Positions 2,066-36,029 of a DNA stretch of 64,000 nt are shown piece after piece; within the stretch, counting starts at the first letter, position 1; each line of letters begins with the position of its first letter. The notes below the pieces were generated by a model. The model saw nothing but the letters and a program-made list of their open reading frames with translations. It ran no database searches and was not told the origin of the DNA. A program made the position numbers and the translations under genes. This DNA comes from Candidatus Electrothrix rattekaaiensis. Its GTDB lineage: Bacteria > Desulfobacterota > Desulfobulbia > Desulfobulbales > Desulfobulbaceae. The stretch is from the NCBI GenBank assembly GCA_032595675.1, contig JAVQMD010000001.1:1-64000 (forward strand), in the 5' to 3' direction.

Positions 2066-2123
2066 GTCGTTGGCCGATTTTGCTTAAAATTTGAAATATA
2101 TAACTATATAAGGAGATTGTGCA

Positions 2124-3263
2124 ATGGGTTACGATCCTAAAAATCCCATGGAGGGTCGGATTACCGACTTGGGACCTCGTTCATACACGGAAATGCTGCC
2201 TCCGGTTATCGCGGCTAATAAAGGAAAATGGGACTACCACGAGATTATTGCTCCGGGTATCCTTCTGCATGTAGGTGAGAGTGGAGACGAATGCTACACC
2301 GTACGCGTAGGTTCTCCCCGTCTGGTTTCCATCGAATACATTCGTGAGCTGTGTGACATCGCGGATAAGTACTGCGAAGGGTACCTGCGTTTCACCACCA
2401 GAAACAACGTGGAGTTCATGACTGACTCCAAAGAGAAATGCGATGCTCTGGTTGAAGACCTGAAGGGTCGCGACACCAAGCTGCCTGTCGGCGGTACCGG
2501 TGCCTGTGTCACCAATATCGTGCATACCCAGGGTTGGGTTCACTGCCATACCCCGGCCACCGATGCTTCAGGTCCGGTTAAAGCGGTAATGGATGATCTG
2601 TTCGAGTACTTCGGTTCCATGACCCTGCCTGCACAGGTACGTATTGCTCTGGCCTGCTGCCTGAACATGTGTGGTGCTGTTCATGCTTCTGATATCGCTA
2701 TCCTTGGTGTGCATCGTAAGCCGCCGATGATTGATCATGCGCGTATCACCGGTGTGTGTGAGTTGCCTTTGGCTATTTCCGCTTGTCCGCTGGGTGCTGT
2801 TAAGCCTGCCAAGGCTGAGGTGAACGGTCAGGAAGTCAAGACCGTTAAGGTTAACGCTGACCGTTGTATGTTCTGCGGTAACTGCTACACCATGTGTCCG
2901 GCTATGCCTCTGGCTGACCCGGAAGGTGACGGTATTGCTATTCTGGTCGGCGGCAAGGTATCCAATGCCAAGTCCGCTCCGAAATTCTCCAAACTGGTTA
3001 TCCCGTTCTTGCCTAACACCCCGCCGCGTTGGCCGGAGACTGTTGAGGCTGTTCGTAAAATCGTTGAGGTTTACGCGAAGGATGCCAAGAAGTACGAGCG
3101 TATCGGCGAATGGGCTGAGCGTATCGGTTGGGAGAAGTTCTTTGAAAAATGTGAGATTCCCTTTACCGATAAGTCTATCGACGATTACCGTCTGGCTTAC
3201 GATACATGGCGGACATCCACTCAGTTCAAGTACACCAACGCTACAGACGCTTACACCAAGTAA
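2124..3263 (+). CDS. dsrB: dissimilatory sulfite reductase beta subunit
   Basis: DsrB, 379 residues, is the second subunit of dissimilatory sulfite reductase and binds the catalytically active sirohaem in known enzymes. The sirohaem/cluster region shows the CCLNMC motif (C178-C183). The ferredoxin insert shows the C-x2-C-x2-C-x3-CP pattern (C248, C251, C254, C258). AAGGAG precedes the ATG. It lies 58 bases after dsrA and is followed by a hairpin and then dsrD, the standard dsrABD order of sulfate reducers. No frameshift or missing ligand was seen. Confidence 0.98.
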
Positions 3264-7203: not shown

Positions 7204-8475
7204 ATGTCTAACGTCTCTTTGCCGGATGCGCAACCGGATGCGCAGCGCATAGTAATAACCGGAGTGGGCCTGACCGCACCCGGAGGGTCCAATACCCTTG
7301 CCGATTTTCGTGAGCAGGTTCTTGCAGGCCGGAGTGGAATCTCCACCATTGATCTACGCTATATGGATACCTATCCTGCCGGGATCTGCGATTTCCCAGA
7401 AACCAAGTATCGAAAAAAAAAGGAAAACAAGCGGGGGACCAGAGCCGGTTGTATCGGGGTGTACTGCGCCGGAGAGGCCTTGGCTGATGCCGGGATAGAT
7501 TTTTCCGAGTATGACCGCAGCCGCACCGGGGTCTACATGGGCTTGACCGAACACGGGACTGTGGAAACGGAAAATGAGGTCTATAATATAAGTAAATTTG
7601 ACTATAACGTCGATTACTGGACCCATCATCATAATCCCCGAACGGTTCTCAATAATCCGGCCGGGGAAATCACCATGAAATTCGGGATCACCGGCCCGCA
7701 TTATGCGGTTGGGGCTGCCTGTGCTGCCGGGAATGCCGCTTTGATCCAAGGTTCCCAGATGCTTCGTCTTGGCGAGGTTGATCTTGCCCTCTGCGGCGGC
7801 TTATCCGAATGTGTGGGCTCTTTCGGCATCTTTGCCAGCTTCCGCGCCCAAGGAGCTCTGGCTGAACATAAGGAACCGACAAAAGCCAGTCGTCCGCTAG
7901 ATCTGGATCGGAACGGTATTGTTATCTCCGAAGGCGGCTGCGTGTTCACCTTAGAGCGTCTGGACAAAGCCCTTGCCCGAGGAGCAAAGATCTACGGGGA
8001 AGTTGCTGGCTATGCCATGAACTCCGATGCCCGTGATTTTGTCCTGCCCTATGGCCCACGTCAAGCAGAGTGCATCCGTGTAGCTCTTGAACGGGCTGGA
8101 TTGACTCCAGAGGATATCAGTATTATCAATACCCATGCCACCGGCACCAAGCAGGGTGACGTGGAGGAGTGCAAGGCCTTGGCTGAGGTCTTTGCCGGTT
8201 GCTCCGCTGTCAGAAGCAATAACACCAAGTCGATAATCGGGCACGCTATGGGTGCTGCCGGAGTCTTGGAATTGGCAGCGAATCTCTCCGCTTTTGAAGA
8301 TAATTTTGTTCACCCGACAATTAATCTGGACAATCTTGATCCAGACTGTGTTCTCCCGGGATTGGTTGCTGACAAGGCGGAAAAAGTTGAACAGGTGGAG
8401 ACGATTCTTAATAATTCTTTCGGCATGGTAGGGATAAATTCGGTAGTCATTATCAAGAGATTTGTGGCGGACTAA
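7204..8475 (+). CDS. beta-ketoacyl-ACP synthase (FabF-like)
   Basis: A 423-residue condensing enzyme of the KAS II fold that joins malonyl-ACP to an acyl chain. The active-site set is complete: Cys173 in GAACAAGNAAL, His311 in NTHATGT and Lys342/His347 in TKSIIGHAMGAAG. Unlike housekeeping FabF, it is not next to fabD or fabG. Instead it is followed by a dedicated ACP (8591) and CrtI-like oxidoreductases, so it probably builds a special acyl chain. GGAG of the alaS end serves as its ribosome site. An ordinary fatty-acid role cannot be excluded from sequence alone. Confidence 0.93.
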   Translation: MSNVSLPDAQPDAQRIVITGVGLTAPGGSNTLADFREQVLAGRSGISTIDLRYMDTYPAGICDFPETKYRKKKENKRGTRAGCIGVYCAGEALADAGIDFSEYDRSRTGVYMGLTEHGTVETENEVYNISKFDYNVDYWTHHHNPRTVLNNPAGEITMKFGITGPHYAVGAACAAGNAALIQGSQMLRLGEVDLALCGGLSECVGSFGIFASFRAQGALAEHKEPTKASRPLDLDRNGIVISEGGCVFTLERLDKALARGAKIYGEVAGYAMNSDARDFVLPYGPRQAECIRVALERAGLTPEDISIINTHATGTKQGDVEECKALAEVFAGCSAVRSNNTKSIIGHAMGAAGVLELAANLSAFEDNFVHPTINLDNLDPDCVLPGLVADKAEKVEQVETILNNSFGMVGINSVVIIKRFVAD

Positions 8476-8939: not shown

Positions 8940-10328
8940 ATGGCTGATTACCAGCTCATCATTATCGGCGGCGGCCTCTCCGGCTTGGCCGCCGGTATCC
9001 GTTCAGCTCGTTTCGGGCAGAAAACCCTGATTATCGAGCAGCATAGCCTGCCCGGTGGTTTAAATTCCTATTACTACCGCCAAGGCTATCTGTTGGAAAC
9101 CGGTCTTCATGCGATGACCAATTTTGCCGCCCAAGGGGCCAAACATGCGCCCTTGAACAGGTTGTTCCGCCAGTTGAAACTTTCCCGCAAAAAATTTATC
9201 ACCCACGAGCAGCTCGGCTCCGAGGTGATTTTCCCCCAGGCATCGCTCCAATTTTCCAACGACTTTGATCTCCTCTGCGAAGAAATAGCACGTCATTTCC
9301 CGGCAAGCATTGACCGATTTCGGGCAATGGCTAAGGAAATTGATGCCTATGATCCCTTTGCCGAGGTGCCCTGGCAATCGGCTCGAAATTTTTTGCGGGA
9401 TCGCCTTGCCGAACCTCTGCTGGAAGATATGCTTCTCTTGCCTCTGATGGTGTACGGCAATGCCGAAGAGCATGACATGGATTTGGGGCAGTTTGCCATT
9501 ATGTTTCGGGCACTCTTTTTGGAGGGCTTTTTTCGTCCAGAAGGAACGATTAAAGATTTGATCGACATGCTGTTGGAACAGTATGCCCGATTCGGAGGAG
9601 AACTGCGCTTTCGTACTCCTGTTGCCGCAATCATCAACAAAGATGATACGGTACAGGGGATTCGCTTGGAAAACGGCGAAGAGATCACCGCAGATGCGGT
9701 CCTGTCCACTGTGGGCATTCCAGGAACAGCTCAATTAAGCGGCTGGTCCCTAGACATTGACGAGTATATTGGTAGAATGACCTTTATGGAGTCTATTTCT
9801 ATGGTACCGGAATTGCACCTGCCACCAGAACGAGCAGGCCGTACTATCCTGTTTTACAGCCTCAATGAAAAGCTTCGCTATCACCAGCCGACAGAGCCTA
9901 TTGATCCTTCTTGGGGGGTAATCTGTTTCCCGGATAATTTTGAGGGGCTGGAAAGGAAAAGCGATGCCCCTGTCCAGGTGCGGGTGACCAATGCGGCCAA
10001 TTATGAACTCTGGCAGCAAGCGGCGGACGATAAAGAGCAGTACCGGCAACTCAAAAAAGAATGCGGGCAACAGTCGGCAGCAGCAGTGAACCAGATCCTT
10101 GGTCAATACAACCAAGGCGCAGTGTTTCAGGACAGTTTTACGCCCATGACCATTGAGCGGTTTACGGAAAAGCGGGGCGGAGCCGTATACGGCAGTCCGA
10201 TCAAGATCAAGAGCGGCAGAACGCCGTTTGAGAATCTCTTTATCGCGGGCACAGATCAGGGCTATCTCGGGATTGTCGGGGCCATGCTCAGTGGCGTGAC
10301 TATTGTGAATCAGCATCTTTTGACCTGA
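8940..10328 (+). CDS. CrtI-like FAD-dependent oxidoreductase (phytoene desaturase family)
   Basis: A 462-residue flavoprotein of the phytoene desaturase/carotenoid isomerase family. The N-terminal dinucleotide fold is IIIGGGLSGLAAGIRSA, with the acidic end IIEQH and the following PGGLNSYYY. The C-terminal FAD motif lies near FIAGTDQGYLGIVGAMLSG. Family members desaturate, saturate or isomerise long polyene or isoprenoid chains. No squalene, phytoene or other carotenoid synthase is present nearby, but a ketosynthase and an ACP are, which favours an acyl chain as substrate (inference). It is one of three such genes in the window (also 11702 and 26948). Confidence 0.88.
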   Translation: MADYQLIIIGGGLSGLAAGIRSARFGQKTLIIEQHSLPGGLNSYYYRQGYLLETGLHAMTNFAAQGAKHAPLNRLFRQLKLSRKKFITHEQLGSEVIFPQASLQFSNDFDLLCEEIARHFPASIDRFRAMAKEIDAYDPFAEVPWQSARNFLRDRLAEPLLEDMLLLPLMVYGNAEEHDMDLGQFAIMFRALFLEGFFRPEGTIKDLIDMLLEQYARFGGELRFRTPVAAIINKDDTVQGIRLENGEEITADAVLSTVGIPGTAQLSGWSLDIDEYIGRMTFMESISMVPELHLPPERAGRTILFYSLNEKLRYHQPTEPIDPSWGVICFPDNFEGLERKSDAPVQVRVTNAANYELWQQAADDKEQYRQLKKECGQQSAAAVNQILGQYNQGAVFQDSFTPMTIERFTEKRGGAVYGSPIKIKSGRTPFENLFIAGTDQGYLGIVGAMLSGVTIVNQHLLT

Positions 10329-11615: not shown

Positions 11616-11701
11616 AGCGGATTGTTGCAAAGGAACGACGATTCAACAGCCTTGGGTAAAGCACTCTGGGTAACTTGTTAACATGGAAAGAGTTTATTGC
11701 T

Positions 11702-13108
11702 ATGTCCTTTACGCCTCTTGACAAGGTTCAAAACAACTACGATGTTATTGTTATCGGCTCCGGTCTCGGTGGCCTGACCTGTGCCAACCGTCTTGCCAAG
11801 GCGGGTCATGCGGTTCTCCTGCTGGAGCACCATATCCAGTTGGGTGGGTTGGCGACTTGGTTTAAGCGGGGAGGGCATATCTTTGATGTCTCCCTGCACG
11901 GTTTCCCGCACGGAATGGTCAAGACTTGCAAAAAATACTGGTCCAAGGAGATCAAAGACTCCATTGTCCAGCTCAAAAACATCGCCTTTGATAATCCCCA
12001 GTTTTCCCTGACCACCACCTTTTCTAAGGATGATTTTGTCCGCATCCTCCATGAGGATTTCAAAGTTGAGCGGACCACGGTGGATGATTTTTTCACCACG
12101 GTCAGGGCGATGAATTTTTATGATGATCAAGGCATGACTACTCGGGAGCTTTTTGAGCAGTTTTTTCCGGGCCGATCCGATGTTCATCGCCTCCTGATGG
12201 AGCCTATCACCTATGCGAACGGCTCTACCTTGGATGAGCCAGCCATTACCTACGGGATTGTTTTTTCCAATTTCATGAGCCGGGGCGTGTTCACCTTTGA
12301 GGGCGGTACAGATAAACTCATCGCCATGATGGCGGAGGATCTGCAAAAGAGCGGCGTGACCATCTGCACCGGGGCCAAGGTCGAGCGAATTTTGGTTGAT
12401 AACGGCAAAACCAGGGGTGTCCTTGTCGGAGGTCGGGAAATTATGGCCAAGGCTGTGGTCTCCAATTCCGGCATCACCAATACCATTGATAACTTAGCTG
12501 GACGGGAAGCCTTTAGTGCTGATTTTCTTTCCCGTTTTGATAAGGTGGTGGTGAATAACTCTTCCTGTCAGGTCTATTTCGGTATTCGTCAAGGGGAGTC
12601 CTTCCCGGATATCGGGGATCTGCTCTTTACCTCAACTGCCGAAGAGTTTTCCTCGGAAGAAATGCGGCGTATGGATACCAAAAGCCGCACCTTTTCTGTC
12701 TACTATCCCAAGACCCGCCCGGACAAGCCGGATTACACCGTGGTCGCCTCCATGAACGGTAATTACGACGACTGGGCAGGGCTGGATGATGTCGCCTATA
12801 AAGAGGCCAAGGAGGCTATGGTGGAGCGTTGTTTTGTTGATCTGGAACGCTATATTCCCGGCATCCGTGATAAGGTAGATACTATTTCTTCAGCCACGCC
12901 CAAGACCTTTAACCGCTACACCCTCCATACCAAAGGCACTTCCTTTGGCACCAAGTTCGAGGGGCTGGATATCTCCCGCTCTCTCTTTAAAGAGGTAAGT
13001 GGGCTGTTCCATGTTGGTTCGGTCGGGATTATCATGAGCGGCTGGCTGGGCGCGATCAACTACGGGGTGATTGTGGCTAATGATGTGGATGCGTATATAC
13101 GCGCATAG
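11702..13108 (+). CDS. CrtI-like FAD-dependent oxidoreductase (phytoene desaturase family)
   Basis: 468 residues. The N-terminal FAD fold is DVIVIGSGLGGLTCANRLA, followed by LLEHHIQLGGLATWFKRGG. The C-terminal segment LFHVGSVGIIMSGWLGAINYG replaces the usual FAD-closing motif. It is a distant paralogue of the proteins at 8940 and 26948. The ATG at 11702 is chosen because GGAAAGAG lies before it; an in-frame TTG at 11675 would add nine residues. The likely role is hydride removal, addition or isomerisation on a long unsaturated chain made by the ketosynthase/ACP genes nearby (inference from context). Confidence 0.88.
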   Translation: MSFTPLDKVQNNYDVIVIGSGLGGLTCANRLAKAGHAVLLLEHHIQLGGLATWFKRGGHIFDVSLHGFPHGMVKTCKKYWSKEIKDSIVQLKNIAFDNPQFSLTTTFSKDDFVRILHEDFKVERTTVDDFFTTVRAMNFYDDQGMTTRELFEQFFPGRSDVHRLLMEPITYANGSTLDEPAITYGIVFSNFMSRGVFTFEGGTDKLIAMMAEDLQKSGVTICTGAKVERILVDNGKTRGVLVGGREIMAKAVVSNSGITNTIDNLAGREAFSADFLSRFDKVVVNNSSCQVYFGIRQGESFPDIGDLLFTSTAEEFSSEEMRRMDTKSRTFSVYYPKTRPDKPDYTVVASMNGNYDDWAGLDDVAYKEAKEAMVERCFVDLERYIPGIRDKVDTISSATPKTFNRYTLHTKGTSFGTKFEGLDISRSLFKEVSGLFHVGSVGIIMSGWLGAINYGVIVANDVDAYIRA

Positions 13109-21195: not shown

Positions 21196-21462
21196 ATGCA
21201 GGAACTGACCAACGAACTCAAGACAAAGCTTATTGAGATCCTGAATCTCAGCGATATAGAGCCGGAAGATTTTGACGAGCAGGCCCAACTGGTCGGCGGA
21301 GAACTCGGCATTGATTCCATCGACGTTTTGGAGATGGTGGTGATGGTCGAAAAAGACTACGGGATCATCATTAATAATCAGGAAGTCGGCCAAAAAGTCT
21401 TTGCCTCCCTTGCCTCGCTTGCCGAGTATATTCAGGAAAATTCGCAGGGAACATCCTCTTGA
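21196..21462 (+). CDS. acyl carrier protein
   Basis: An 88-residue ACP. The phosphopantetheine serine lies in GIDSIDVLEMVV (about residue 38), with acidic helices either side. Its stop overlaps the TTG start of the ketosynthase fusion (TTGA), so ACP and synthase are made together. The 20997-21195 gap upstream is AT-rich and should hold the operon promoter, though no clear boxes were found. It is more like ACPs of secondary acyl pathways than housekeeping AcpP, judged by its dedicated context. Confidence 0.93.
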   Translation: MQELTNELKTKLIEILNLSDIEPEDFDEQAQLVGGELGIDSIDVLEMVVMVEKDYGIIINNQEVGQKVFASLASLAEYIQENSQGTSS

Positions 21463-23753
21463 CAGTCAAACCGGTATATATCTGCGGCACCGGGATCATC
21501 AGCCCACTCGGTGTTGATTATGCTGCGACAGAAGCAAAACTGCGACAAGGGGACACGGCGATCCGTCCGCTGGATCTCTTTTCCCTGGTCCAGGAAAATC
21601 CTCTGCCGGTGGGGCAGGCACCCCTGCCTGAAGAGAGGGCAGACAGTACACACTTTCTGCCGAGAAGCCATCGTCTGGCCCTTGCAGCAGCCAAGCAGGC
21701 TATGACAGACAAGGTTACGGATAAAATTACAGATACGAAGGATGGAGTATCCGGCGTTCCTTCAGAGATAGAGATAATTCCCGATGCCGTTATTCTCGGC
21801 ACCACCACCGGCGGTATCCTCTTCACGGAAGAGCTGCTGTACCAACAGGTGAAGGAAGAACAGGTTAAGGATAAATCGCGTTTCCGGTATCACGGTTTAC
21901 ATACGGTTGCCAATTGCATAGCAGCGGCATGTCACTGCATTGGCCCGGCCCTGACCGTCTCCACAGCCTGCGCCTCCGGGGCGGTGGCCCTGGCTCTGGC
22001 CCTGCGTATGCTCCGCAGCGGGCAGGCCGAGACCGTGTTGGCAGGCGGGGTAGATTCGCTCTGTCGTCTCACCTATTTCGGTTTTCATTCCCTACAATTG
22101 GTTGATCGAAAGGGCTGCAAACCCCTTGATCAGAATCGGCAAGGCATGGCTGTGGCGGAAGGAGCAGCAATGCTTCTGCTCTCCACTGCCAAGCCCAAGC
22201 ATTGCCGAGCACGATTGCTCGGAGCCGGTTTGTCCTGTGATGCCTATCATCCTGCGGCGCCCCATCCCGAGGGCAAAGGTGCTTTTGCCGCTATGGAGGC
22301 AGCCTTGGCCGATGCTGGGCTGACTCCTGATGATATCGACTATATTAATCTGCACGGTACCGGTACTCCGGATAATGATCTGGCGGAATCCAAGGCGGTG
22401 CGCAGGCTGTTCAGCACCGTGCCCCCGCTTTCCTCAATTAAGGGCGCATCCGGTCATTCGCTGGCTGCTGCCGGGGCCATTGAGGCTGTTGTCTCGACAC
22501 TCTGTGTTGCGCAAGGACTGCGACCCGCCAATACCGGGCTTCAACAGGTAGATCCCGCTTTGGGCCTGACCCCGTTGATCAAACCAACTGTACAGCCGAC
22601 CAAGGCGGTTCTCTCCAATTCTTTCGGGTTCGGCGGGAATAATGCCTCCTTGGTTATCGGAGCACCTGAGCTGCCGGAAAAAAAACATAAAGACCAGGAA
22701 CAACCAGAGGAAATGCTGGCGGTTCATAGCTGCTCCTGCCTGACCGGAGCCGGTGATCTGGCTGCTACCCTTGAATATCTGCAAAACGGAGGATCCGCTG
22801 CTGGTTGTGCAGAACAGGAGATCATTGCAAAAAACCTCCCTCCCCGTCTGATCCGCCGTTTGAAGCGGCTACCGAGAATAACCTTGTCCTTGGCCCTGGA
22901 AGCAGTTCATGCTGTTCAGAGTAAGAAGGGAACTGAGTCAGAGAAACCGGCTGCCATTTTTATGGGCACAGGTTGGGGGGCACTTTCCGATACCTATGAT
23001 TTTTTGACCCGGCTGCGGGAATCGCAAGAACAATTCCCCAGTCCCACGGATTTTGTCGGGTCCGTGCATAATAGCCCGGCCAGTCAGGCCGCGATTCTCT
23101 TCGAGGCAACCGGCCCCAATATCACCACCAGCGGGGGCGATTACTCCTTTGAGCAGGCCCTGTTGGCGGCCCAGCTCCAGCTTGATGATTCGATGCCTGC
23201 CCTCATCCTTGGAGCTGATGAGGGGCATCCTGAATTCTCACCGCTCTTTGATGCTTCGATTCATCAGGGAGCCTCTCCGGCTGACCTTGCTGATGGCGGC
23301 GGGGCCTTGTTGGTGAATCGGAGTATGGAAGGCGCGATCTGTAGCGTACGTCTTCCCTTTTATCAAAGCAGCAAAGGGGAAGATCCGGTCAGCGCACTCG
23401 TCAAGACGCTTTGCCCTGAAGGAACCAAAGATCTGAGCCGTTATGCCCTTGTTTTGGTTGGTATCCCGGCAGCTATGGAAAAAGAGGGGGAAGAACAGCT
23501 TGCCCGTTTTATGAAACAGGCCTCTCTCACCGCCCCGGTCCTTCGTTATCGCAAGCAGATTGGTGAGTTTGCCTCGGCCTCGGCAACGGCAGCAGCACTT
23601 GCAGTCTCTTTTATGGCAGCAGGATGTATTCCCGGTACCCTGACAGGAACAGAGGATATCCTCTTGGACGACCAGAAGAATGAGCAGAAGAATTCCATCC
23701 TGGTCTTGGGTCTGGGAGAGTACATCACGGTGATGGAGTTCCAACGGCCATGA
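21459..23753 (+). CDS. ketosynthase - chain-length-factor-like fusion
   Basis: 764 residues with two thiolase-fold halves. The N-half (1-405) is a complete FabF-type ketosynthase: Cys171 in TVSTACASG, His299 in NLHGTGTP and Lys328/His333 in IKGASGHS. The C-half (about 425-764) matches the N-terminal ketoacyl-synthase-like family used as chain length factor. It has FVGSVHNSPASQAAILFEA and GPNITTSGGDYSFEQALL, where the active-site Cys position is Gly, so it cannot condense. The pair therefore resembles a type II PKS KS-alpha/KS-beta dimer made as one chain (inference). It starts with TTG overlapping the ACP and ends ATGA into the radical SAM gene. Confidence 0.88.
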   Translation: MTVKPVYICGTGIISPLGVDYAATEAKLRQGDTAIRPLDLFSLVQENPLPVGQAPLPEERADSTHFLPRSHRLALAAAKQAMTDKVTDKITDTKDGVSGVPSEIEIIPDAVILGTTTGGILFTEELLYQQVKEEQVKDKSRFRYHGLHTVANCIAAACHCIGPALTVSTACASGAVALALALRMLRSGQAETVLAGGVDSLCRLTYFGFHSLQLVDRKGCKPLDQNRQGMAVAEGAAMLLLSTAKPKHCRARLLGAGLSCDAYHPAAPHPEGKGAFAAMEAALADAGLTPDDIDYINLHGTGTPDNDLAESKAVRRLFSTVPPLSSIKGASGHSLAAAGAIEAVVSTLCVAQGLRPANTGLQQVDPALGLTPLIKPTVQPTKAVLSNSFGFGGNNASLVIGAPELPEKKHKDQEQPEEMLAVHSCSCLTGAGDLAATLEYLQNGGSAAGCAEQEIIAKNLPPRLIRRLKRLPRITLSLALEAVHAVQSKKGTESEKPAAIFMGTGWGALSDTYDFLTRLRESQEQFPSPTDFVGSVHNSPASQAAILFEATGPNITTSGGDYSFEQALLAAQLQLDDSMPALILGADEGHPEFSPLFDASIHQGASPADLADGGGALLVNRSMEGAICSVRLPFYQSSKGEDPVSALVKTLCPEGTKDLSRYALVLVGIPAAMEKEGEEQLARFMKQASLTAPVLRYRKQIGEFASASATAAALAVSFMAAGCIPGTLTGTEDILLDDQKNEQKNSILVLGLGEYITVMEFQRP

Positions 23754-25111
23754 GAGTCTTGCTGATCTCACCCAATACCCTGACCGTCCCCTACCCGGTC
23801 TATCCCATCGGGCTTGATTATGTGGCAGGCTCGATTCCGCCGCACCATGAGGTCCGCATTGCCGATTGCAATGTCCTTTCCCGCGATGAATTGGAGGTGC
23901 TGCTTGCAGAGTATCAACCTGAAGTCATAGGTATTTCATGTCGGAATATTGATAATACCGAGGCCGGAGATCCGCTCTGTTTTATCAATGTCTACAAGGA
24001 ACTGGTTTCCTGGCTGCGTTCCTGTTCGCAGGCGATCCTAGTTTGCGGCGGCAGCGGCTTCAACATCATGCCGGAAAAGATCCTGCCTGCCCTTGATGTG
24101 GATTACGGCCTTGTGGGAGAGGGCGAGCACTTTGGTTTGTTTTTGGAAGCCTTGGACAAGAAGCAGAACCCGACCAAGATTCCCGGAGTACTTGCGGCCT
24201 CCTCCTGTTTGCCTGACATCCCTACGGAGAAGGCCCCTCCTTGGGACGGCTTGCAATATCGCGCTGTTCAACAAGAGGCAGGGTATTATCGTTTTTATCT
24301 TGAGCACGGCGGCATGCTCAATCTCCAGACGAAACGAGGCTGTTCTTTCCGCTGCGTGTACTGCCCGTACCCCCATATTGAGGGAAAACAACATCGCCTG
24401 ATTGATCCGCAACAGGTGGCAGAAACCGCATTGGAATTGGAAGCGGCTGGGGCAAAATATCTCTTTCTCACGGATTCAGCCTTTAACTCGGATATTGACC
24501 ACAGCCTTGCTGTTGCCAAGGCCTTTCAAAAGGCCGGGTTGACAATCCCCTGGGGCGGCTTCTTTGCCCCGGTCAAGCTGCCTTTGGACTATTTTACGGT
24601 CATGGCCGATGCCGGGCTTGCCCATGTGGAATTCGGTACAGAATCCCTGTCTGATGCCATGCTGAAGAATTACAGGAAACCCTTCCGGGTGCAGGAGGTC
24701 TTGACTGCCCATCAGCAGGCCCTTGATGCTGGTTTACATACGGCCCATTATTTTCTCCTTGGAGGACCGGGGGAATCCGCAGACACGATTAACGAGAGCC
24801 TGGAGCATCGGGAGCAGCTCAAGAAGACCGTTACCTTCTACTTTGTCGGGATTAGGATTTATCCTGGTACAGGGTTGTACGATATTGCCTTGGAAGAGAG
24901 GAAGATTAATAAGGCAACGGATCTCCTCCAGCCTGTTTTCTATGAACCTGATTTAATTACTCGGGAGCAGATTGATGAGATGGTTACGGAACGGGCCGGG
25001 AATCGGATTAATTGGATTGTTGGTTCTGGAGGTGCGCAAGCTGCTGCCACAGTCGCCAAAATGCATTCCAGAGGATACACAGGGCCGTTGTGGGAGTATC
25101 TGATACGGTGA
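23750..25111 (+). CDS. B12-binding-type radical SAM protein
   Basis: 453 residues. The N-terminal cobalamin-binding-like domain (1-130) has LLISPNT and PIGLDYVAG but lacks a DxHxxG motif. The radical SAM core has the cluster motif C198-x3-C202-x2-C205 in GCSFRCVYCPYP and a glycine-rich SAM strand, ahead of a C-terminal helical region. Such enzymes perform radical methylations, cyclisations or C-C couplings. It is translationally coupled (ATGA) to the ketosynthase fusion, so its substrate is probably an ACP-bound or free product of that synthase. This is the gene that most suggests an unusual carbon skeleton. Confidence 0.88.
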   Translation: MRVLLISPNTLTVPYPVYPIGLDYVAGSIPPHHEVRIADCNVLSRDELEVLLAEYQPEVIGISCRNIDNTEAGDPLCFINVYKELVSWLRSCSQAILVCGGSGFNIMPEKILPALDVDYGLVGEGEHFGLFLEALDKKQNPTKIPGVLAASSCLPDIPTEKAPPWDGLQYRAVQQEAGYYRFYLEHGGMLNLQTKRGCSFRCVYCPYPHIEGKQHRLIDPQQVAETALELEAAGAKYLFLTDSAFNSDIDHSLAVAKAFQKAGLTIPWGGFFAPVKLPLDYFTVMADAGLAHVEFGTESLSDAMLKNYRKPFRVQEVLTAHQQALDAGLHTAHYFLLGGPGESADTINESLEHREQLKKTVTFYFVGIRIYPGTGLYDIALEERKINKATDLLQPVFYEPDLITREQIDEMVTERAGNRINWIVGSGGAQAAATVAKMHSRGYTGPLWEYLIR

Positions 25112-25154: not shown

Positions 25155-26939
25155 ATGAAGTTTCCCTACGGCATCTGCGACTTTCAGAAAATTATCAGCC
25201 AAGGCTATTTCTACGCCGATCGGACCAATCTGATCCCCCTGCTGGAGGAAACCGGTGACCAGCTCCTGTTTCTCCGTCCCCGCCGTTTCGGCAAGAGTCT
25301 GCTCCTGTCCATGCTGGAAAATTATTATGATCTGGCCAAGGAGGATACCTTTGCCCAGCTCTTCGGTAACCTGAAGATCGGAAAAAATCCGACCCCAAGG
25401 CATAATAGCTATTTTGTTTTGAAATGGGATTTTTCAGCGGTCAGCCCCCAAGGGGCAACGGAAGAAATCAGGCAGCATTTGCATGATTATCTCAATGATC
25501 GCATTAATTTTTTTTCCGTTTATTACCGTGATCGGCTAGCGACTGAAATCCGTCTTGACAGGAAGAACGCCCTGTCTTCCTTTCAGTCCCTGCTCAATGC
25601 GATCCAGCAGAGTGGACACCCACTTTATCTGTTTATTGATGAATACGATAATTTCGCCAATGAAGTGATGGTGAGTGCGGAGCAGCGGCAAGAAACAGAT
25701 TATGCCACCCTACTTTCCGGTGAAGGTGCGCTGAAAGCCCTGTTCAAGGTCATCAAGTCCGCCGCAGCAGGCCAAGGGCTGGACCGGGTGTTCATCACCG
25801 GGGTGTCACCCGTGGTGCTGAGCGATATCACCAGCGGCTATAATGTTGCAGAAAATATCTACCTGCTACCGGAATTCAATCATCTCTGCGGCTTTCATCA
25901 GGAGGAAATCGCGGAAATGTTACAGCTGGTCGCAGCCCGCTGTGATTTACCTGAAGAAAAGACGGCAGAAACCCTGGAGCTGATGCGTACTTTTTATAAC
26001 GGCTACTGTTTCAGTCCTCGTACCGAGAAGCGTATCTACAATCCGACCTTGGCTCTTTATTTTCTCAAGTCCTTTCAGCGTGACTGCGAATATCCGCAAA
26101 AGTCCCTTGATAGCAATATGGCTATGGACAGGGGGAGAATTCGCAGCATTGCCCATATGCCCGGAGGACAGCAGCTTATCATGGAGGCGTTGGCGGAGCG
26201 GCCCTCCGTAAGTATCCCGGAACTGGTTGACCGCTTTGGTATACAGGACATGCTTGATGCTCGGAAAGATACGACCTTCATGGCCTCGTTGCTCTATTAT
26301 TTCGGGGTGCTGACCATAGGGGGGAAAGACGATTTCGGCAAAACCGTTCTGAAGATCCCCAACCTAGTGATCCGCAAACTGTATGCTGAACGGATCCGGG
26401 ACTCCTTGCTGCCGGATAATCAAAGCATGGAAACCGCCCGACAGGCAGCCGAAGCCTTGTACCAGCAGGGAAATATTCATCCTCTGTGCGATTTCGTTGA
26501 GCAGAAATACTTCAAGATCTTTCATAACCGTGATTATGCCTGGAGCAACGAACTGACCCTGAAGACCGCTTTTTTGACCCTGCTGTTCAACGACACCTTT
26601 TACATCATGGAATCGGAGACCGCGCTGGAACGCTCGTACGCAGACCTCACCATGATTGTGCGCCCGGATATGCGTCAGTACGGGTTGTTGGATATCCTGC
26701 TGGAATTTAAATATGTCTCCTTGAAAGAAGCAGGGCTGAACGGAGAACAGCTTGAACGGCTCGGTCCCGAAGAACTCGGACAGCTGCCTGCGGTGCAAAA
26801 AAAACAGGAGGAAGCACGGCAAGGCTTGGCCCGTTATCAGCGCAAGCTTCACGATAAATTTTCCGATCTGCTTAATCTGCGCAGCTTCAGTGTGGTTTCG
26901 GTGGGATTTGAACGACTGGTCTTCACCGAGGAATCATAA
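25155..26939 (+). CDS. AAA-ATPase-like / PD-(D/E)XK nuclease domain protein
   Basis: 594 residues of the AAA-ATPase-like family that carries a C-terminal PD-(D/E)XK (PDDEXK_9) domain. The N-terminus KFPYGICDFQKIISQGYFYA is diagnostic. The P-loop is RPRRFGKSLLLS and a Walker B acid lies in LFIDEYDNF. The C-terminal nuclease-type core includes GLLDILLEFKYV. Function is unknown; these proteins are numerous in Bacteroidetes and some Desulfobacterota and look like mobile or selfish genes. It sits inside the lipid operon, 43 bases after the radical SAM gene and eight before the CrtI gene, which looks like an insertion. Confidence 0.88.
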   Translation: MKFPYGICDFQKIISQGYFYADRTNLIPLLEETGDQLLFLRPRRFGKSLLLSMLENYYDLAKEDTFAQLFGNLKIGKNPTPRHNSYFVLKWDFSAVSPQGATEEIRQHLHDYLNDRINFFSVYYRDRLATEIRLDRKNALSSFQSLLNAIQQSGHPLYLFIDEYDNFANEVMVSAEQRQETDYATLLSGEGALKALFKVIKSAAAGQGLDRVFITGVSPVVLSDITSGYNVAENIYLLPEFNHLCGFHQEEIAEMLQLVAARCDLPEEKTAETLELMRTFYNGYCFSPRTEKRIYNPTLALYFLKSFQRDCEYPQKSLDSNMAMDRGRIRSIAHMPGGQQLIMEALAERPSVSIPELVDRFGIQDMLDARKDTTFMASLLYYFGVLTIGGKDDFGKTVLKIPNLVIRKLYAERIRDSLLPDNQSMETARQAAEALYQQGNIHPLCDFVEQKYFKIFHNRDYAWSNELTLKTAFLTLLFNDTFYIMESETALERSYADLTMIVRPDMRQYGLLDILLEFKYVSLKEAGLNGEQLERLGPEELGQLPAVQKKQEEARQGLARYQRKLHDKFSDLLNLRSFSVVSVGFERLVFTEES

Positions 26940-26947
26940 AGCACCTT

Positions 26948-28435
26948 ATGCCTTCTGATAAAAAAATACTGATTATCGGCTCCGGTATCGGTGGCCTGAG
27001 TACGGCAATTATTCTGGCAAAGCTGGGCTTTGAGGTCGCCGTGCTGGAGAAGAATGCTCAGGCTGGCGGATTGATGCGCAGCTATCCCCGTGATGGTATT
27101 GAATGCGAAGTCGGGGTCCATTATCTGGGCTCTCTTGATAAGGGACAAGTTCTGCGGAAATTCTTTGATTATCTGGGCGTCACAGAGGATATTCCGGTCA
27201 CCAAGATGGGGGAAGGCGGCATCATTGATCGTTATATCTTTGATGCTTCCGACCGTCAGCCTGTACAACCCACAGTCTTTGATGTACCTCAGGGGATGTC
27301 CGCCTTTGCGGAAAATCTCAACCAGGCTTTTCCCCTGGAACGAGAGGCAATCGCCGAAATTCTTTCCCATTTGCGCAAGGCGAGTGAGCAGTTGCACCGC
27401 CTGGATTTTCTTTATGGGATGGAAAATAATTTTTCCCTGCTTGATCAGGCGGACTCCTTTGGTGAAATTCTCAATCAACTGAACTGCTCTCCACGGCTTC
27501 GCAGTATATTGGCCGTGCCTTCCTGCTGGATCGGCGTCCCTTTGGAGGATTGTCCGGCCTATTATCATAATATGGCCTTGGCCTCCTATCTCTCTTCCTC
27601 GTGGAGGCTGAATTGCAGCGGTTCGGATATGGCTGATGTTTTCAGTCGCCGTTTCTTGGAATTGGGTGGGAGGATTATAACCCGAGCTGAGGTCAGCGGG
27701 CTGGAGGTTGAAAACCGAGTCGTCAAAGGCGTGCGTTTGCAATCTGGGGAGTATCTCCCGGCTGAAACAATAATCGGGGCCGTACACCCGAAAGTGGTTT
27801 TGCAGATGCTGCCAGAGGGAGCTGTGAAACCATCCTACCGCCAACGAATCAGTAACCTGCACGATACCCACGGGATTTTTGCTGCTCATGTTCGTGTTGA
27901 TGCGGAGAGCCATCCCGAGATCCCCTATAATATCTTCAAGATCGACACAGATCAGGAAGGGAATGTCCCGGATCTGAAGTATTATCAAATCCGCAAAACG
28001 GGAAAAGAAGATGCTCACCTCCTTTCCATCCTGACTTCAGGTAAGGATGAACTCTGGGCACCTTGGGCTCATACCAGCACCGGTCGGCGCGGTAAGAAGT
28101 ATGGCGCGGTGAAAACGCAACATGCCGAAGAATTACTCAAGGAGGCCGAGGCCTTATTTAGCCCCTTTAAAGGAGCAAAAATCCTTGATGCCTATACTCC
28201 CCTGACCATGCGGGATTGGGTCAACGCACCCGGCGGGAGTGCTTACGGGATCCAGCGTTCCTCCAGCCAGATGCTGTCTGCTGCTTTGCTGAACCGCACT
28301 GCTGTTAAAGGCTTGTATCTTGCCGGTCAAAATGTATTGGCTCCCGGAATCATCGGTGCTATCATGGGATCATTCAGTACGGTGAAATTAATCGTCGGAG
28401 CAGAGGTATTTCAAGAAGACTGCTTGATGATGTGA
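26948..28435 (+). CDS. CrtI-like FAD-dependent oxidoreductase (phytoene desaturase family)
   Basis: 495 residues. The N-terminal FAD fold is ILIIGSGIGGLSTAIILAKLG, followed by VLEKNAQAGGLMRSY. The C-terminus GLYLAGQNVLAPGIIGAIMGS closes the FAD site. It is closer to carotenoid isomerase/retinol saturase-like members than to classical CrtI in appearance. It is the third such enzyme of the window and completes the ACP, KS-fusion, radical SAM and oxidoreductase group. recD follows after 19 bases. The substrate is unknown; a long unsaturated acyl chain is inferred from neighbours. Confidence 0.88.
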   Translation: MPSDKKILIIGSGIGGLSTAIILAKLGFEVAVLEKNAQAGGLMRSYPRDGIECEVGVHYLGSLDKGQVLRKFFDYLGVTEDIPVTKMGEGGIIDRYIFDASDRQPVQPTVFDVPQGMSAFAENLNQAFPLEREAIAEILSHLRKASEQLHRLDFLYGMENNFSLLDQADSFGEILNQLNCSPRLRSILAVPSCWIGVPLEDCPAYYHNMALASYLSSSWRLNCSGSDMADVFSRRFLELGGRIITRAEVSGLEVENRVVKGVRLQSGEYLPAETIIGAVHPKVVLQMLPEGAVKPSYRQRISNLHDTHGIFAAHVRVDAESHPEIPYNIFKIDTDQEGNVPDLKYYQIRKTGKEDAHLLSILTSGKDELWAPWAHTSTGRRGKKYGAVKTQHAEELLKEAEALFSPFKGAKILDAYTPLTMRDWVNAPGGSAYGIQRSSSQMLSAALLNRTAVKGLYLAGQNVLAPGIIGAIMGSFSTVKLIVGAEVFQEDCLMM

Positions 28436-31778: not shown

Positions 31779-32210
31779 ATGATTTCAGTCGATATCACGG
31801 TGCTCATTCACATCATTAATATGATAGCTTTAATGTTCATCCTGAACAAGGTTCTGTACAAACCCATCATTGAGATTATGGAAAAACGACAGGATAAGCT
31901 GGATGACCTGGGTAATGACGTTGAAAAATGTGAACGAAACGCCAAAAAACGCCAAGCGGAAGTGGAAAAGAAAATGCGGGAGGCTTCGGTCAAAGCCAAG
32001 GAAGCATTAGATGCAGCCAGAAATGAGGCGGCAAAGGCAGGTGCTGAAAAGTTGGCTGTTGTTCGTCGGGAAGCAGACGGCGAAAAGGAAAAACAGCTTG
32101 CTGAAGTGCATGCCGAGTTTGAGGAAACCCGCAAAGAATTACAGGGCAACATGGAAGACTTTGCCCGAGAGATGGCCTCAAAAATACTGGGAAGGAGTCT
32201 GGAAGCATGA
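31779..32210 (+). CDS. atpF': F0F1 ATP synthase subunit b'
   Basis: 143 residues. One N-terminal membrane helix (ISVDITVLIHIINMIALMFI) is followed by a long charged alpha-helix, the dimeric peripheral stalk. It is the first gene of the F1 cluster b'-b-delta-alpha-gamma-beta-epsilon, a layout usual in Desulfobacterota in which the a and c subunits are encoded elsewhere. Its stop overlaps the next ATG by four bases (ATGA). b and b' together form a heterodimeric stalk. Confidence 0.93.
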   Translation: MISVDITVLIHIINMIALMFILNKVLYKPIIEIMEKRQDKLDDLGNDVEKCERNAKKRQAEVEKKMREASVKAKEALDAARNEAAKAGAEKLAVVRREADGEKEKQLAEVHAEFEETRKELQGNMEDFAREMASKILGRSLEA

Positions 32211-32992
32211 AAGCTCGAAGTATGAAAAAGATTGTTCCGACACTGCTCGTTGCTGGCTTGTGCGTGGGGGTATGCGCACTATCCTTTGCTCAGGAACACG
32301 GCAACGAAGGACATCCTGTTGAACAGGCTGCTGTGTATGAACAGCATGCAGAGCAGCAGGCTGAACATCAGAATCCGGCTGCCGGTACTCCTGAGGGCAC
32401 GCATGGCGATGGCACCCTAGAAGCGCACGGAACAGCAGAACATTCAGAATATGCTGCTGCTGAGCACGGTGAGAGTCATGGCGAAGGCCACGTCGCTCCT
32501 ATGATTACCAAAGCAAAGTTATGGGATCTCTTATGGCGGGCTCTGAACTTTGCCGCTTTGGTTTTTATTCTGGTCAAGTTTCTTGCCAGACCCATTGCAG
32601 CTGGCTTGGGCGGCAGGAAACGCCAGATTCAGGATGAGCTGGAGACCATGAAGGAAAAACGCGACGAGGCGGAGCAGGAATATAAGGCCTTTGAGTCGCG
32701 CTTAGCCGGAATGGACAGCGAACTGGTGGAGCTCGTTGAAAAGGCCAAAGCAATGGCTGAGGACGAGAAGGCCAGAATTCTTGCCGAGGCCGAAGCGTCG
32801 GCAAAGGATATACGGCGTCAGGCTGAAGCAGCAGTAGAAGGGGCTCTTGCTCATGCAAAGAGTAAGCTGCAGGTGGAAATTGCGGAGCAGGCTGTTGTCA
32901 TGGCTGAGGAGCTGATCGTAAAAAACCTGACTCCAGAAGATCAGGTGGCGATCACTGAACAGTATCTTGAACGTGTGGGTGCGGTACAGTGA
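32207..32992 (+). CDS. atpF: F0F1 ATP synthase subunit b with His-rich N-terminal extension
   Basis: 261 residues, much longer than the usual 160-200. The order is: a signal-peptide-like helix (IVPTLLVAGLCVGVCALSFA), a hydrophilic segment of about 75 residues very rich in His, Glu, Ala and Gly (about 30-100, some 15 His), a membrane helix (ALNFAALVFILVKFL), then the stalk helix. The extension would lie on the periplasmic side and could bind metal or protons; this is inference. Ends by overlapping the GTG start of atpH. Confidence 0.92.
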   Translation: MKARSMKKIVPTLLVAGLCVGVCALSFAQEHGNEGHPVEQAAVYEQHAEQQAEHQNPAAGTPEGTHGDGTLEAHGTAEHSEYAAAEHGESHGEGHVAPMITKAKLWDLLWRALNFAALVFILVKFLARPIAAGLGGRKRQIQDELETMKEKRDEAEQEYKAFESRLAGMDSELVELVEKAKAMAEDEKARILAEAEASAKDIRRQAEAAVEGALAHAKSKLQVEIAEQAVVMAEELIVKNLTPEDQVAITEQYLERVGAVQ

Positions 32993-33537
32993 AACAGACA
33001 ATTATAGCAAAGCGATATGCCAGGGCGATCTTTACACTCGGGCAAGAAAACGGGACTGTTGATAGCTACGCGGAGACGCTCTGCACCATTGCTGATCTCT
33101 TTGATGATCCGGCACTTGAAGTCGCAGAAACCCTTGTCAATCCTCTGTATCCGCTTGAGGCCAGACATAAAGTTATGACCGCGATTGCGGAAGCCGCCGG
33201 TGCCGATGCCCTGACGACCGCCTTTCTTAATCTCCTGGTAGAGCGGAAACGGATTGATGTTTTGCGAGAAGTCGCGGACCAGATTCGTGAGCTGCTTGAC
33301 CTTGAAAAGAATATCAGTCACGGTCGTGTCACATCGGCAATGGAGCTTGATGAAGTACTGCTCGGCAAGATTCAGGCAAAGCTGGAAGAAATTACAGGTC
33401 ATAAGGTAATTCTTGAAACACAGGTTGATCCCTCGATTATCGGCGGCATGATAGCTAGAGTCGGAGATCTGGTGTTGGACGGAAGTATTAGAACACAACT
33501 TAATGGATTAAAAGAATCTATCAAGGGGAGAGAATAG
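32989..33537 (+). CDS. atpH: F0F1 ATP synthase subunit delta
   Basis: 182 residues, the OSCP/delta subunit that ties the peripheral stalk to the top of F1. Typical N-terminal [12 protein letters not shown] and C-terminal region with [20 protein letters not shown]. It starts with GTG overlapping the atpF stop (GTGA) and ends four bases before atpA. Confidence 0.95.
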
Positions 33538-33541
33538 TCAG

Positions 33542-35065
33542 ATGCAGATCAAAGCCTCAGAAATCAGTCGGATCATAAAGGATCAGATCGCCGGTTATGC
33601 CAGCGATATAGATCTGAAAGAAACCGGAACAGTCCTTTCGGTCGGTGACGGTATTGCCCGTGTATATGGTGTTGAAAACTGTCAGGCCATGGAGTTGCTT
33701 GAGTTCCCCGGCGGCATCATGGGACTCGCTCTGAACCTGGAGGAGGACAATGTCGGTGTTGCGGTCATGGGAAATGTCCGTCATATTAAGGAAGGCGACA
33801 TAGTCAAGCGGACCGGAAAAATCGCCCAGGTTCCGGTCGGCCCGGAATTGGAAGGCCGGGTGGTTGACGGTATCGGGCTGCCCATTGACGGTAAAGGAGC
33901 GATTGAGGCCAAAGAAACCCGGAAAATGGAATTACTGGCTCCCGGTGTTATCGCCCGTAAGGGTGTGCATGAGCCCTGCTACACCGGTTATAAGGCGGTT
34001 GATGCTATGACCCCGGTGGGTCGCGGTCAGCGTGAGCTGGTGATCGGTGACCGTCAGATCGGTAAGACAGCCCTTTGTGTGGATGCGATCATCGCCCAAA
34101 AAGACAGCGGCATACATTGTGTGTACGTCGCCACGGGACAGAAAAAATCCACGGTTGCTCTGGTGGTCGAGGCCCTGCGGAAAAACGGTGCTATGGAATA
34201 CACCACCGTGGTTGCGGCCTGTGCCTCTGATCCTGCTCCGATGCAGTATGTTTCCGCGATGGTCGGCTGCGCAATGGCTGAGTACTGGCGCGATAGCGGT
34301 CAGCATTCTCTGATTATATATGATGACCTTTCCAAGCAGGCGGTCGCCTATCGTGAGCTGTCTCTGCTGCTCCGTCGTCCGCCGGGACGTGAGGCCTATC
34401 CGGGTGATATTTTCTTCAACCACTCCCGTCTGCTGGAGCGGGCCGCCAAAGTCAGCGATGAGCTCGGTGCTGGTTCCATGACCGCTCTGCCCATCATTGA
34501 GACCCAGGCTGGAGACGTTTCCGCCTTTATCCCGACCAATGTTATTTCCATTACCGACGGTCAGGTTTTTCTGGAGCCAAGCCTGTTCTTTGCTGGTGTT
34601 CGCCCGGCGATCAACGTAGGTATTTCCGTATCACGCGTCGGTGGTGCAGCCCAGGTGAAGGCTATGAAGCAGGTCGCGGGTACCCTGCGTCTTGACTTGG
34701 CCCAGTACCGTGAGCTAGCAGCCTTTGCCGGTTTCGGTTCTGACCTAGACGCTGCCACTCAGGCCCAGCTGACCCGAGGTGAGCGTCTGGTTGAGATCCT
34801 CAAACAACCCCAGTACCAGCCCCTGTCCATGGAAAAGCAGGTCACGATTATCTTTGCTGGCACCAAAGGGTTTCTTGATAAATTTCCTGTCGATACTCTT
34901 GCAGATTACGAGCAGGAAATGTACAGCTATATTGAGACCAATGAGCCGTCGATTTTTACGGAGCTGCAGGAAAAACAAGAGATTTCAAGCGAGCTGGATG
35001 AAAAAATGAGAAAAACGCTGACTGCTTTTGGTGAGGCGTTTAAAGCGACTAAAGGGCTGAACTGA
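33542..35065 (+). CDS. atpA: F0F1 ATP synthase subunit alpha
   Basis: 507 residues, the regulatory nucleotide-binding subunit of F1. The P-loop is GDRQIGKTA (about 170-178), and the alpha signature [14 protein letters not shown] lies near residue 355. The length is standard. It is followed by a 94-base spacer that contains a degenerate short repeat (GAACTGAGG, GTCTCAACTAAAGG, CTGAACTAAGGG). Confidence 0.98.
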
Positions 35066-35159
35066 GGTTCTTAACTGAAGGTCTCAACTAAAGGCCTGAA
35101 CTAAGGGCCTGCACGAAGCTCGAAGTTCGAAGAGCAAGGAACTGCAAGGAACTGATCAC

Positions 35160-36029
35160 ATGCCTGGATTAAAGGATGTCAAAAATAAAATAGAAGGCGT
35201 CTCAAAGACTTCGCAGATTACCAAGGCCATGAATATGGTTGCCTCTGCGAAACTGCGCGGTGCGCAGGAGAGAATGGTGACCTTCCGGCCCTATGCGGAA
35301 AAATTCGCCGAGACCATGAAGGATCTGTCCGGCGGCATGAGCGGCAACCAGCCGCTTATGGAAGTCCGTGAGGTGCAGACTGTTGAACTTATTGTCGTCA
35401 CCTCCGACCGAGGGCTTTGCGGGAGTTTTAATGCCCATATTATCTCTACGGCACAAAAGCTCATAAATCAATTTGAGGCAGAGGGAAAAGAGGTCAGTCT
35501 GATCACGGTGGGCAATAAGGCTGCTCAGGCCTTTAGGCGATCCGGGAAGATTCGTGAATCCTATAAGGATATCATGGGTACTTTTCAGATGTACCATGCC
35601 CGTGACATATCTCGGAGTGCCACCCTGAATTTTCTCTCAGGAGAAACTGATGAGGTGCGGGTCGTGTATGCACGCTTTCTTTCTATGGCCAAACAGCAAC
35701 CGACCGAGGAAACGCTGTTGCCCATTAAACCTCTTGAGCAGGGAGAGGAGGAAAAGACCGGTACGGCTGTGGAGTATATCTATGAGCCCGATCCTGAACA
35801 GATTATGGAGGCCCTTCTCCCGCTGTATCTGAATGTACAGGTCTATCATGCTATGATTGAGGTTGCGGCCGGTGAGCATGCGGCTCGAATGGCGGCTATG
35901 GATAATGCAACCAATGCATGCGGAGATATTATCAGTGAGTTGACGCAATTGTACAATAAGGCTCGCCAGGCGGCCATTACCGGCGATCTTATGGATATCG
36001 TCGGTGGTGCTGAGGCACTGAAGGGGTAA
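35160..36029 (+). CDS. atpG: F0F1 ATP synthase subunit gamma
   Basis: 289 residues, the rotor shaft of F1. The N-terminal helix is GLKDVKNKIEGVSKTSQITKA, a conserved core SDRGLCGSFN lies near residue 82, and the C-terminal helix has MDNATNACGDIISELTQLYN. The gene is intact. Its last 190 or so bases occur a second time, decayed, at 37501-37700, just before atpD, beyond two unrelated genes that split the operon here. Confidence 0.97.
   Translation: MPGLKDVKNKIEGVSKTSQITKAMNMVASAKLRGAQERMVTFRPYAEKFAETMKDLSGGMSGNQPLMEVREVQTVELIVVTSDRGLCGSFNAHIISTAQKLINQFEAEGKEVSLITVGNKAAQAFRRSGKIRESYKDIMGTFQMYHARDISRSATLNFLSGETDEVRVVYARFLSMAKQQPTEETLLPIKPLEQGEEEKTGTAVEYIYEPDPEQIMEALLPLYLNVQVYHAMIEVAAGEHAARMAAMDNATNACGDIISELTQLYNKARQAAITGDLMDIVGGAEALKG

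Follow-up and report, generated by a model that had tools for sequence, protein, structure and literature searches.

The stretch of DNA analysed here, hereafter the window, comprises positions 1 to 64,000 of contig JAVQMD010000001.1 (assembly GCA_032595675.1) from Candidatus Electrothrix rattekaaiensis, a member of the Desulfobulbaceae. On its forward strand, positions 21459-23753 form a single unbroken open reading frame (ORF) of 764 aa with a TTG start, and the encoded protein is a ketosynthase (KS) joined to a full-length chain-length-factor (CLF) half without the catalytic Cys. Both ends of the gene are interlocked with its neighbours: the TTG start lies inside the stop of an upstream acyl carrier protein (ACP) gene, with a 4-nt overlap, and the stop shares an ATGA (4 nt) with the start of a downstream gene for a B12-binding radical S-adenosylmethionine (SAM) protein.

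The KS half is covered in Pfam by PF00109 (residues 4-244, E 6.5e-37) and PF02801 (residues 251-360, 1.4e-27), and the C-terminal half (C-half) by PF13723 (residues 455-603, 3.2e-11, 43.7 bits against a cut-off of 25). An initial annotation made from the letters of the window had described one chain with a KS and a CLF-like half and had proposed a search of the second half for PF13723; both the arrangement and the domain are borne out. The chain stops at the end of the CLF half, with no dehydratase domains behind it.

Distribution of the fused protein

The complete protein and a profile of its C-half (E 1e-15 or better) served as queries against 395 genomes of the phylum. The whole-protein search returned 20 full-length matches, the window protein included, with at least 537 bits and at least 46% identity, after which the matches drop to 256 bits or less and cover the KS half only (query residues up to 432), except for one in genome G129 that spans residues 7-568. 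The C-half profile gave 66 matches in 65 genomes, 20 of them at 405 bits or more and 46 at 92 bits or less. All 20 CLF matches over 400 bits lie in fused frames of more than 700 aa at the same places as the full-length matches, and each of the ten loci with the best weaker CLF matches (L169-L178) has a separate CLF frame beside a separate KS frame. The survey of fusions proposed at the outset for the Desulfobulbales places 11 of the 20 fusion genomes in the order of the window, where five further genomes lack the fusion.

A scan of genome contigs found 195 places, and the figures given here come from the best 80, of which 76 are fused, cultured isolates among them, and the other four are cut short by the end of their contig. 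Eight duplicate fused proteins already found in the 395 genomes, which leaves 88 distinct ones, the window's included. One of the carriers, Desulfogranum mediterraneum (L044, the same as L103), belongs to the family of the window. The 80 loci bear Desulfobacterota-type names or come from metagenome-assembled genomes called delta proteobacterium, Proteobacteria or bacterium, with the exception of two purple sulfur bacteria, Allochromatium palmeri (L104) and Thiorhodococcus mannitoliphagus (L110), in which the cluster from DegV to dehydratase described below is also present; this occurrence suggests horizontal transfer. A CLF search of PLSDB plasmids gave one weak record, from Aureispira anguillae.

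An artefact of assembly or gene calling that joined two neighbouring genes, a danger named in the initial annotation, has next to no probability. Unfused KS and CLF genes do lie head to tail in most of the related loci examined, KS first and CLF second with overlapping open frames, so that a small error could join them, and a separate CLF could start at an in-frame ATG (residue 419) closely preceded by a purine-rich stretch. This internal Met, however, is absent from the other 19 aligned rows, the spacing of the Shine-Dalgarno-like stretch before it is in our judgement too short, and an assembly error is rejected because 88 distinct fused proteins exist. The fusion is a real, widespread variant in sulfate-reducing bacteria.

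Active site and predicted fold

Residues were counted in 20 aligned fused homologues (window protein included) and in the 80 loci from the contig scan. Cys171, His299, Lys328 and His333 of the N-terminal half (N-half), found at exactly the positions first annotated, are invariant in the 20 homologues and in the larger set (76/76, 78/78, 79/79 and 79/79, respectively, the remaining rows being gapped there). An hhalign alignment of the two halves (probability 98%, E 1.8e-12, identity 23%) places Cys171 opposite Asp561 with no gap nearby. The earlier statement that the C-half has lost the active-site Cys thus stands, whereas the Gly that had been assigned to this position does not: Asp561 faces Cys171, and the Gly-Gly occupies residues 559-560. 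Residue 561 is Asp in 17, Glu in two and Ser in one of the 20 homologues, and Asp in 79 and Asn in one of the 80 loci; a Cys occurs at column 559 in two relatives (L053, L054), two residues away from the catalytic position. The counterpart of His333 is Glu (13), Gln (5), His (1) or Arg (1) in the smaller set and Glu (69) or Gln (11) in the larger, and that of Lys328 is Arg698 in every row (20/20 and 80/80). Judged from these alignments, the KS active site is missing from the C-half by a Cys-to-Asp change.

Loading-module KSQ domains carry a Gln at the position of the catalytic Cys. It is improbable that the C-half, rather than being a passive CLF, similarly works as a malonyl-ACP decarboxylase (a KSQ-like primer unit) with Asp561 replacing the Cys. 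The acidic, nearly invariant Asp561 (79/80, 17/20) at the KSQ Gln position fits such a role, but the counterpart of His333 is Glu or Gln in 80/80 loci, and in the 20 rows the GIPA segment close to where His299 would fall contains no His apart from two at its far end (the exact counterpart of His299 being uncertain). In alignments read by hand, the position of the Cys is taken by Ile, Arg or Val in solved partner chains. With both decarboxylation His residues missing, a catalytic second half is unlikely.

The reading of the C-half as a CLF agrees with its predicted structure. An AlphaFold2 model of residues 1-764, the prediction called for in the initial annotation, was built on the 20-row alignment and is confident (mean predicted local distance difference test score 87.9, predicted template-modelling score (pTM) 0.93); in it, the C-half is predicted to have KS-fold strands and helices, with the strands of both thiolase repeats up to residue 762. 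The top Foldseek match is the PfaC KS-CLF didomain 6riw (template-modelling score 0.77 by query and 0.65 by target, root-mean-square deviation 6.8, 910 columns, 19% identity), and the other 49 of the 50 listed matches are single KS chains with query scores below 0.5. The PDB chains nearest to the N-half sequence are 7f28_B, 9s5h_B and 6qsp_A, with 6kxd_A lower, and the four best matches of the C-half profile are 9s5h_C, 6kxd_B, 6qsp_B and 7f28_A (E 3e-11 to 8e-7), all of them partner chains of KS-CLF-type or two-KS entries, most PDB matches of this profile covering only about 140 profile positions. The two halves thus match opposite chains of the same entries (7f28 B/A, 6qsp A/B, 6kxd A/B, 9s5h B/C). 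The KS half matches Iga11-Iga12 (6KXD) with a Z of 59.7; VIA-align, in which at least one-fifth of the rows are limited to residues 1-405, says little on the C-half.

Taken together, PF13723, the predicted model, the PDB profile matches and the alignment with the N-half rule out a different fold for the C-half, the second way in which the initial annotation could have failed. Domains, homology, the predicted structure and the 88 distinct proteins all lend strong support to the central claim of that annotation, a covalent KS-CLF. An internal KS duplication within the lineage, which was not formally tested, is not favoured, considering that the best PDB matches of the C-half are partner chains and that the halves are only 23% identical.

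Operon, dispersed cluster and ancestry

The features of the locus and the partner loci elsewhere in the genome are collected in Table 1. Gene neighbourhoods were compared by tblastn (24 reference proteins, E 1e-6) over 100 loci, reduced to 92 after duplicate removal; since many of the 92 are cut by contig ends, the neighbour counts are lower bounds. The nearest upstream reference match is an ACP at 82 loci, another protein at two and none at eight, and the nearest downstream match is a TIGR04072-like radical-SAM protein at 69, another protein at 15 and none at eight. The desaturase-like flavoprotein has a homologue in 14 of the loci, window included. The AAA-ATPase-like gene, for which tblastn found no homologue in the other 91 loci, is an interloper between the radical-SAM and desaturase-like genes.

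Table 1. Coordinates of the fused gene, its functional residues, the neighbouring genes and the partner loci in the genome of the window
Feature	Position	Strand	Evidence
ACP, 88 aa, PRK09184-like	21196..21462	+	PF00550 2.8e-8; NF006617 70.5 bits, cut-off 70
Fused KS-CLF, 764 aa	21459..23753	+	ORF, Pfam, alignment, model, structure match
KS half, residues 1-419 (end is a variable linker of ~15 residues)	21459..22715	+	PF00109 and PF02801
Catalytic Cys171 codon	21969..21971	+	residue position; invariant 20/20
His299 codon	22353..22355	+	residue position; invariant 20/20
Lys328 codon	22440..22442	+	residue position; invariant 20/20
His333 codon	22455..22457	+	residue position; invariant 20/20
CLF half, residues 420-764	22716..23750	+	PF13723; PDB profile matches; model strands to residue 762
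Arg466-Arg467, counterpart of ApeC Arg pair	22854..22859	+	aligned with RR of 6qsp_B and E. coli CLF
Gly559-Gly560-Asp561; Asp561 opposite Cys171	23133..23141	+	hhalign of the two halves; residue counts
B12-binding radical SAM, TIGR04072 rSAM_ladder_B12	23750..25111	+	375.3 bits, cut-off 360
AAA-ATPase-like/PDDEXK_9	25155..26939	+	PF09820 2.4e-49
Phytoene-desaturase-like flavin oxidoreductase	26948..28435	+	PF01593 7e-20
DegV, ligase, B12-domain protein, acyltransferase	C1 118-128 kb (L197)
LolA, FabG, ApeP-like and companion	C2 329-332 kb (L198)
ACPs, two further proteins, KS, thioesterase, dehydratase, more	C2 52-64 kb (L038)

A larger gene set surrounds the fused gene in relatives. At locus L042, for example, one strand carries DegV/Dak2, an AMP ligase, a B12-domain protein, LolA, FabG and an ApeP-like dehydratase, and the other carries an ACP, KS-CLF, a second ACP and two further proteins, one of which weakly matches radical-SAM proteins, as well as two KS, a thioesterase and a polyketide synthase (PKS)-type dehydratase. 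All the shared cluster parts that were sought were found in the genome of the window; they are contiguous in relatives and split here over four loci, the window among them. No homologue of a 392-aa L042 protein, itself present in only three of the 92 loci, turned up in those parts of this genome that were examined. No cluster protein scanned matched an enoyl-reductase family, and several matched no family at all.

Further genes of related type were seen. Upstream of the operon, the window encodes another stand-alone KS and two more phytoene-desaturase-like flavoproteins (7204-8475, 8940-10328 and 11675-13108), and a weak KS match elsewhere in the genome (C1:596079-596732, L008) falls within an open frame of 2578 aa, perhaps a type I multidomain synthase. 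The window also contains sulfite-reductase-type genes, probably dsrAB (785-3263), and ordinary ATP synthase genes (31779-36029; two b-type, delta, alpha and gamma).

Ancestry was examined in quick maximum-likelihood trees with Shimodaira-Hasegawa-like approximate likelihood ratio support only (values in brackets) and no bootstrap, using 20 of the 88 fused proteins. In the KS tree (43 rows), the 20 fused KS halves form one clade as against 22 unfused KS (99), and the E. coli aryl-polyene KS (ApeO) stands beside it (91, long branch); fused, ladderane-type unfused and E. coli sequences make up a group of 30 rows (99), within which the tree does not settle the branching order. The CLF tree also has one fused group (88), with the E. 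coli CLF weakly beside it (69). Fusion may have occurred more than once: genome G129 has a second fused gene (L066, 9057-11597, forward strand, 847 aa), with Cys in the KS half and none seen at that place in the CLF half, and this fusion looks independent because it groups in both trees (89, 90) with an unfused KS and CLF pair lying near it in the same genome. The KS-then-CLF order and overlapping frames of most unfused loci imply that fusion by in-frame joining would be easy.

Proposed function and its alternatives

We assign a probability of about 75% to the reading of the protein as a whole as the single-chain KS-CLF of a type II, aryl-polyene-like acyl synthase. Following established KS-CLF chemistry, the N-half would condense and the C-half would shape the pocket: Cys171 would take the growing acyl chain from ACP, His299 and His333 with Lys328 would decarboxylate malonyl-ACP, and the C-half, as a KS-fold partner devoid of catalytic residues, would form the other side of a pseudo-dimer around the chain and might offer its Arg pair for ACP docking. 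The fusion would turn a two-gene heterodimer into a 1:1 internal pseudo-dimer, and it may set chain length or fix the 1:1 ratio in the cell. Together with ACP and, elsewhere in the genome, FabG, ApeP-like and PKS-type dehydratases, two further KS, a thioesterase and an acid ligase, such an enzyme could produce an acyl chain that is conjugated or polyunsaturated, with no enoyl-reductase step involved; a polyene chain appears to be the most likely product because two kinds of dehydratase are present and the scanned proteins gave no enoyl-reductase match. The coupled B12-radical-SAM enzyme and the desaturase-like flavoprotein may then modify the chain.

Several known systems resemble this arrangement in part. 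The aryl-polyene pair ApeO-ApeC (6QSP, 7F28, E. coli CFT073) shares several features with it, bearing in mind that we assigned the gene names in the CFT073 cluster and placed 7F28 as ApeO-ApeC by inference, 7f28_B being taken as AbApeO because its H257 falls, by hand count, at the His257 of PMC8358021. The KS half is closest to PRK09185 in NCBIfam and has these entries near the top in the PDB, and the Arg-Arg on CLF helix 1, a surface pair proposed for ACP docking on ApeC (PMC8358021), is kept in 20/20 homologues and 80/80 loci. FabG, ApeP-like dehydratase, LolA, thioesterase, acyl-activating ligase, extra KS and ACPs in the genome of the window are likewise shared with aryl-polyene clusters. 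In contrast, ApeO and ApeC are encoded by separate genes according to PMC8358021 and the CFT073 annotation, as the initial annotation had stated for aryl-polyene systems, and ApeC lacks most of the second thiolase repeat (PMC8358021), which is kept in the window protein (CLF half 345 aa, against 240 in E. coli). The B12-radical-SAM and desaturase-like genes are also additions relative to the aryl-polyene cluster, whose E. coli annotation includes an MMPL exporter.

Covalent KS-CLF proteins are not unprecedented, being known from PfaC-type polyunsaturated fatty acid (PUFA) synthases, and a KS and a CLF in one chain and in the same order are found in PfaC (6RIW) and HglC (PMC3098273), 6RIW being the best fold match over both halves. 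PfaC differs in that two dehydratase domains follow its CLF and in being part of a multidomain system whose ACPs are in tandem (PMC3098273), whereas the window encodes a stand-alone 764-aa protein beside a free 88-aa ACP. Both halves also match the respective chains of Iga11-Iga12 (6KXD), which is a two-gene heterodimer from an actinobacterial polyene cluster (PMC8358021). In the open-licence PMC papers searched, covalent KS-CLF turned up only for PUFA/Pfa-type synthases, and we found none that describes a type II system with a fused, stand-alone KS-CLF. A literature search on PDB entry 9s5h gave no relevant paper.

Some observations weigh against an aryl-polyene-like KS-CLF. The best NCBIfam match of the KS half, PRK09185, scores 377.7 bits and does not reach the cut-off of 407, as against 556.1 bits for the E. 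coli aryl-polyene KS, and 17 of the 21 PDB sequences matched by the C-half profile are FabF-type KS (E 2.7e-6 or worse). The internal KS-type pseudo-dimer is predicted from the pTM and the 6riw match. The Arg pair is not diagnostic of the fused family, since 14 of the 19 other CLF rows compared have it too, and the apparent neighbourship with ApeO and ApeC comes from long branches in quick trees without bootstrap, with a support of 69 in the CLF tree. The annotation of the E. coli aryl-polyene cluster shows no radical-SAM gene, which implies that the product should differ.

Because the radical-SAM gene directly downstream exceeds the cut-off of TIGR04072 (NCBI rSAM_ladder_B12, "lipid biosynthesis"), the KS-CLF and this enzyme might form a module that makes cyclised polyene lipids with ladderane-like or other strained rings, as proposed for anammox kuste2802-2805; we consider this possible, with the odds clearly against it. 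The Kuenenia genes, described as an ACP synthase (kuste2802), a B12 radical SAM protein (kuste2803), FabF (kuste2804) and a non-canonical FabB (kuste2805) (PMC2649909, PMC4790861), are similar in content, bringing together a KS, a Cys-less KS-like protein with Glu333 and a B12-radical-SAM enzyme, but the KS and its Cys-less partner are separate genes there. Kuste2805 can be read as a CLF, a lead that follows from its residues Phe163, Asn298, Lys328 and Glu333 (PMC2649909, PMC4790861), although it keeps Lys328 where the C-half has Arg; this comparison is made from published residues. Fifteen of the 20 fusion genomes carry a match to TIGR04072 (E 1e-70 or better) no more than about 2 kb downstream, which in 11 of them exceeds the cut-off. 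Unfused CLFs also lie within about 6 kb of TIGR04072 in four genomes (G325, G285, G232 and G240), with a separate KS beside the CLF in the first two, and such unfused KS share the 30-row group with the fused clade. On the other hand, the fused KS halves fall outside the clade of unfused KS found beside the highest-scoring TIGR04072 proteins, the order inside the 30-row group being left open, and the downstream TIGR04072 proteins of the fused group score 323-412 bits, compared with up to 698 beside unfused CLFs. Moreover, 71 of the 84 genomes (among the 395) with TIGR04072 over the cut-off lack the fusion, and Desulfotalea psychrophila, whose clusters are syntenic, yielded polyunsaturated hydrocarbons but no ladderanes under the conditions used (PMC2649909).

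Another conceivable role, which we regard as rather unlikely, is that of a PUFA-synthase analogue feeding OleABCD, in which polyunsaturated chains would be joined head to head into long hydrocarbons. The best fold match to PfaC KS-CLF is in keeping with this, and the genome of the window encodes a ketoacyl-ACP synthase III (C1:2593660-2594694, L202 and L205; PRK09258, 446.5 bits, cut-off 285) beside a haloalkane-dehalogenase-like hydrolase. The PRK09258 model presumably covers OleA, and we take a hydrolase of this type at this place to be what is expected of OleB, making head-to-head olefin synthesis possible in this organism. The C31:8 and C31:9 hydrocarbons of D. psychrophila (PMC2649909) are consistent with such a route. 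Within the order, an OleA-like gene (E 1e-40 or better) is present in 10 of 11 fusion genomes, but also in two of the five without fusion, and outside the order it occurs in 32 of 379 genomes and in none of the nine fusion genomes. Because of this last count, hydrocarbon synthesis is not the general role of the KS-CLF, and the counts outside the order rule out a general link to OleABCD.

Under the preferred reading, that of a type II, aryl-polyene-like KS-CLF, a little-known pathway around this protein probably builds unsaturated lipid chains, and its product is possibly B12-radical-modified. A broader and tentative proposal, which we hold to be less likely true than false by some way, is that sulfate reducers and two purple sulfur bacteria possess an anaerobic polyene-lipid pathway which has gone unrecognised and has the single-chain KS-CLF at its core, combining aryl-polyene-type chain building with B12-radical-SAM chemistry, so that the nascent polyene would be methylated or cyclised on its carrier; the same logic, with separate KS and CLF, might operate in ladderane synthesis, and the anammox "non-canonical FabF/FabB" would then be CLFs. 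Anammox bacteria had no pure culture as of 2009 (PMC2649909). Through the KS-CLF operon, cultured sulfate reducers and two purple sulfur bacteria possess members of a radical-SAM family whose NCBI name refers to ladderane clusters, and a naturally covalent, stand-alone KS-CLF would be a compact object for testing how a CLF sets chain length, with no need for two-subunit assembly.

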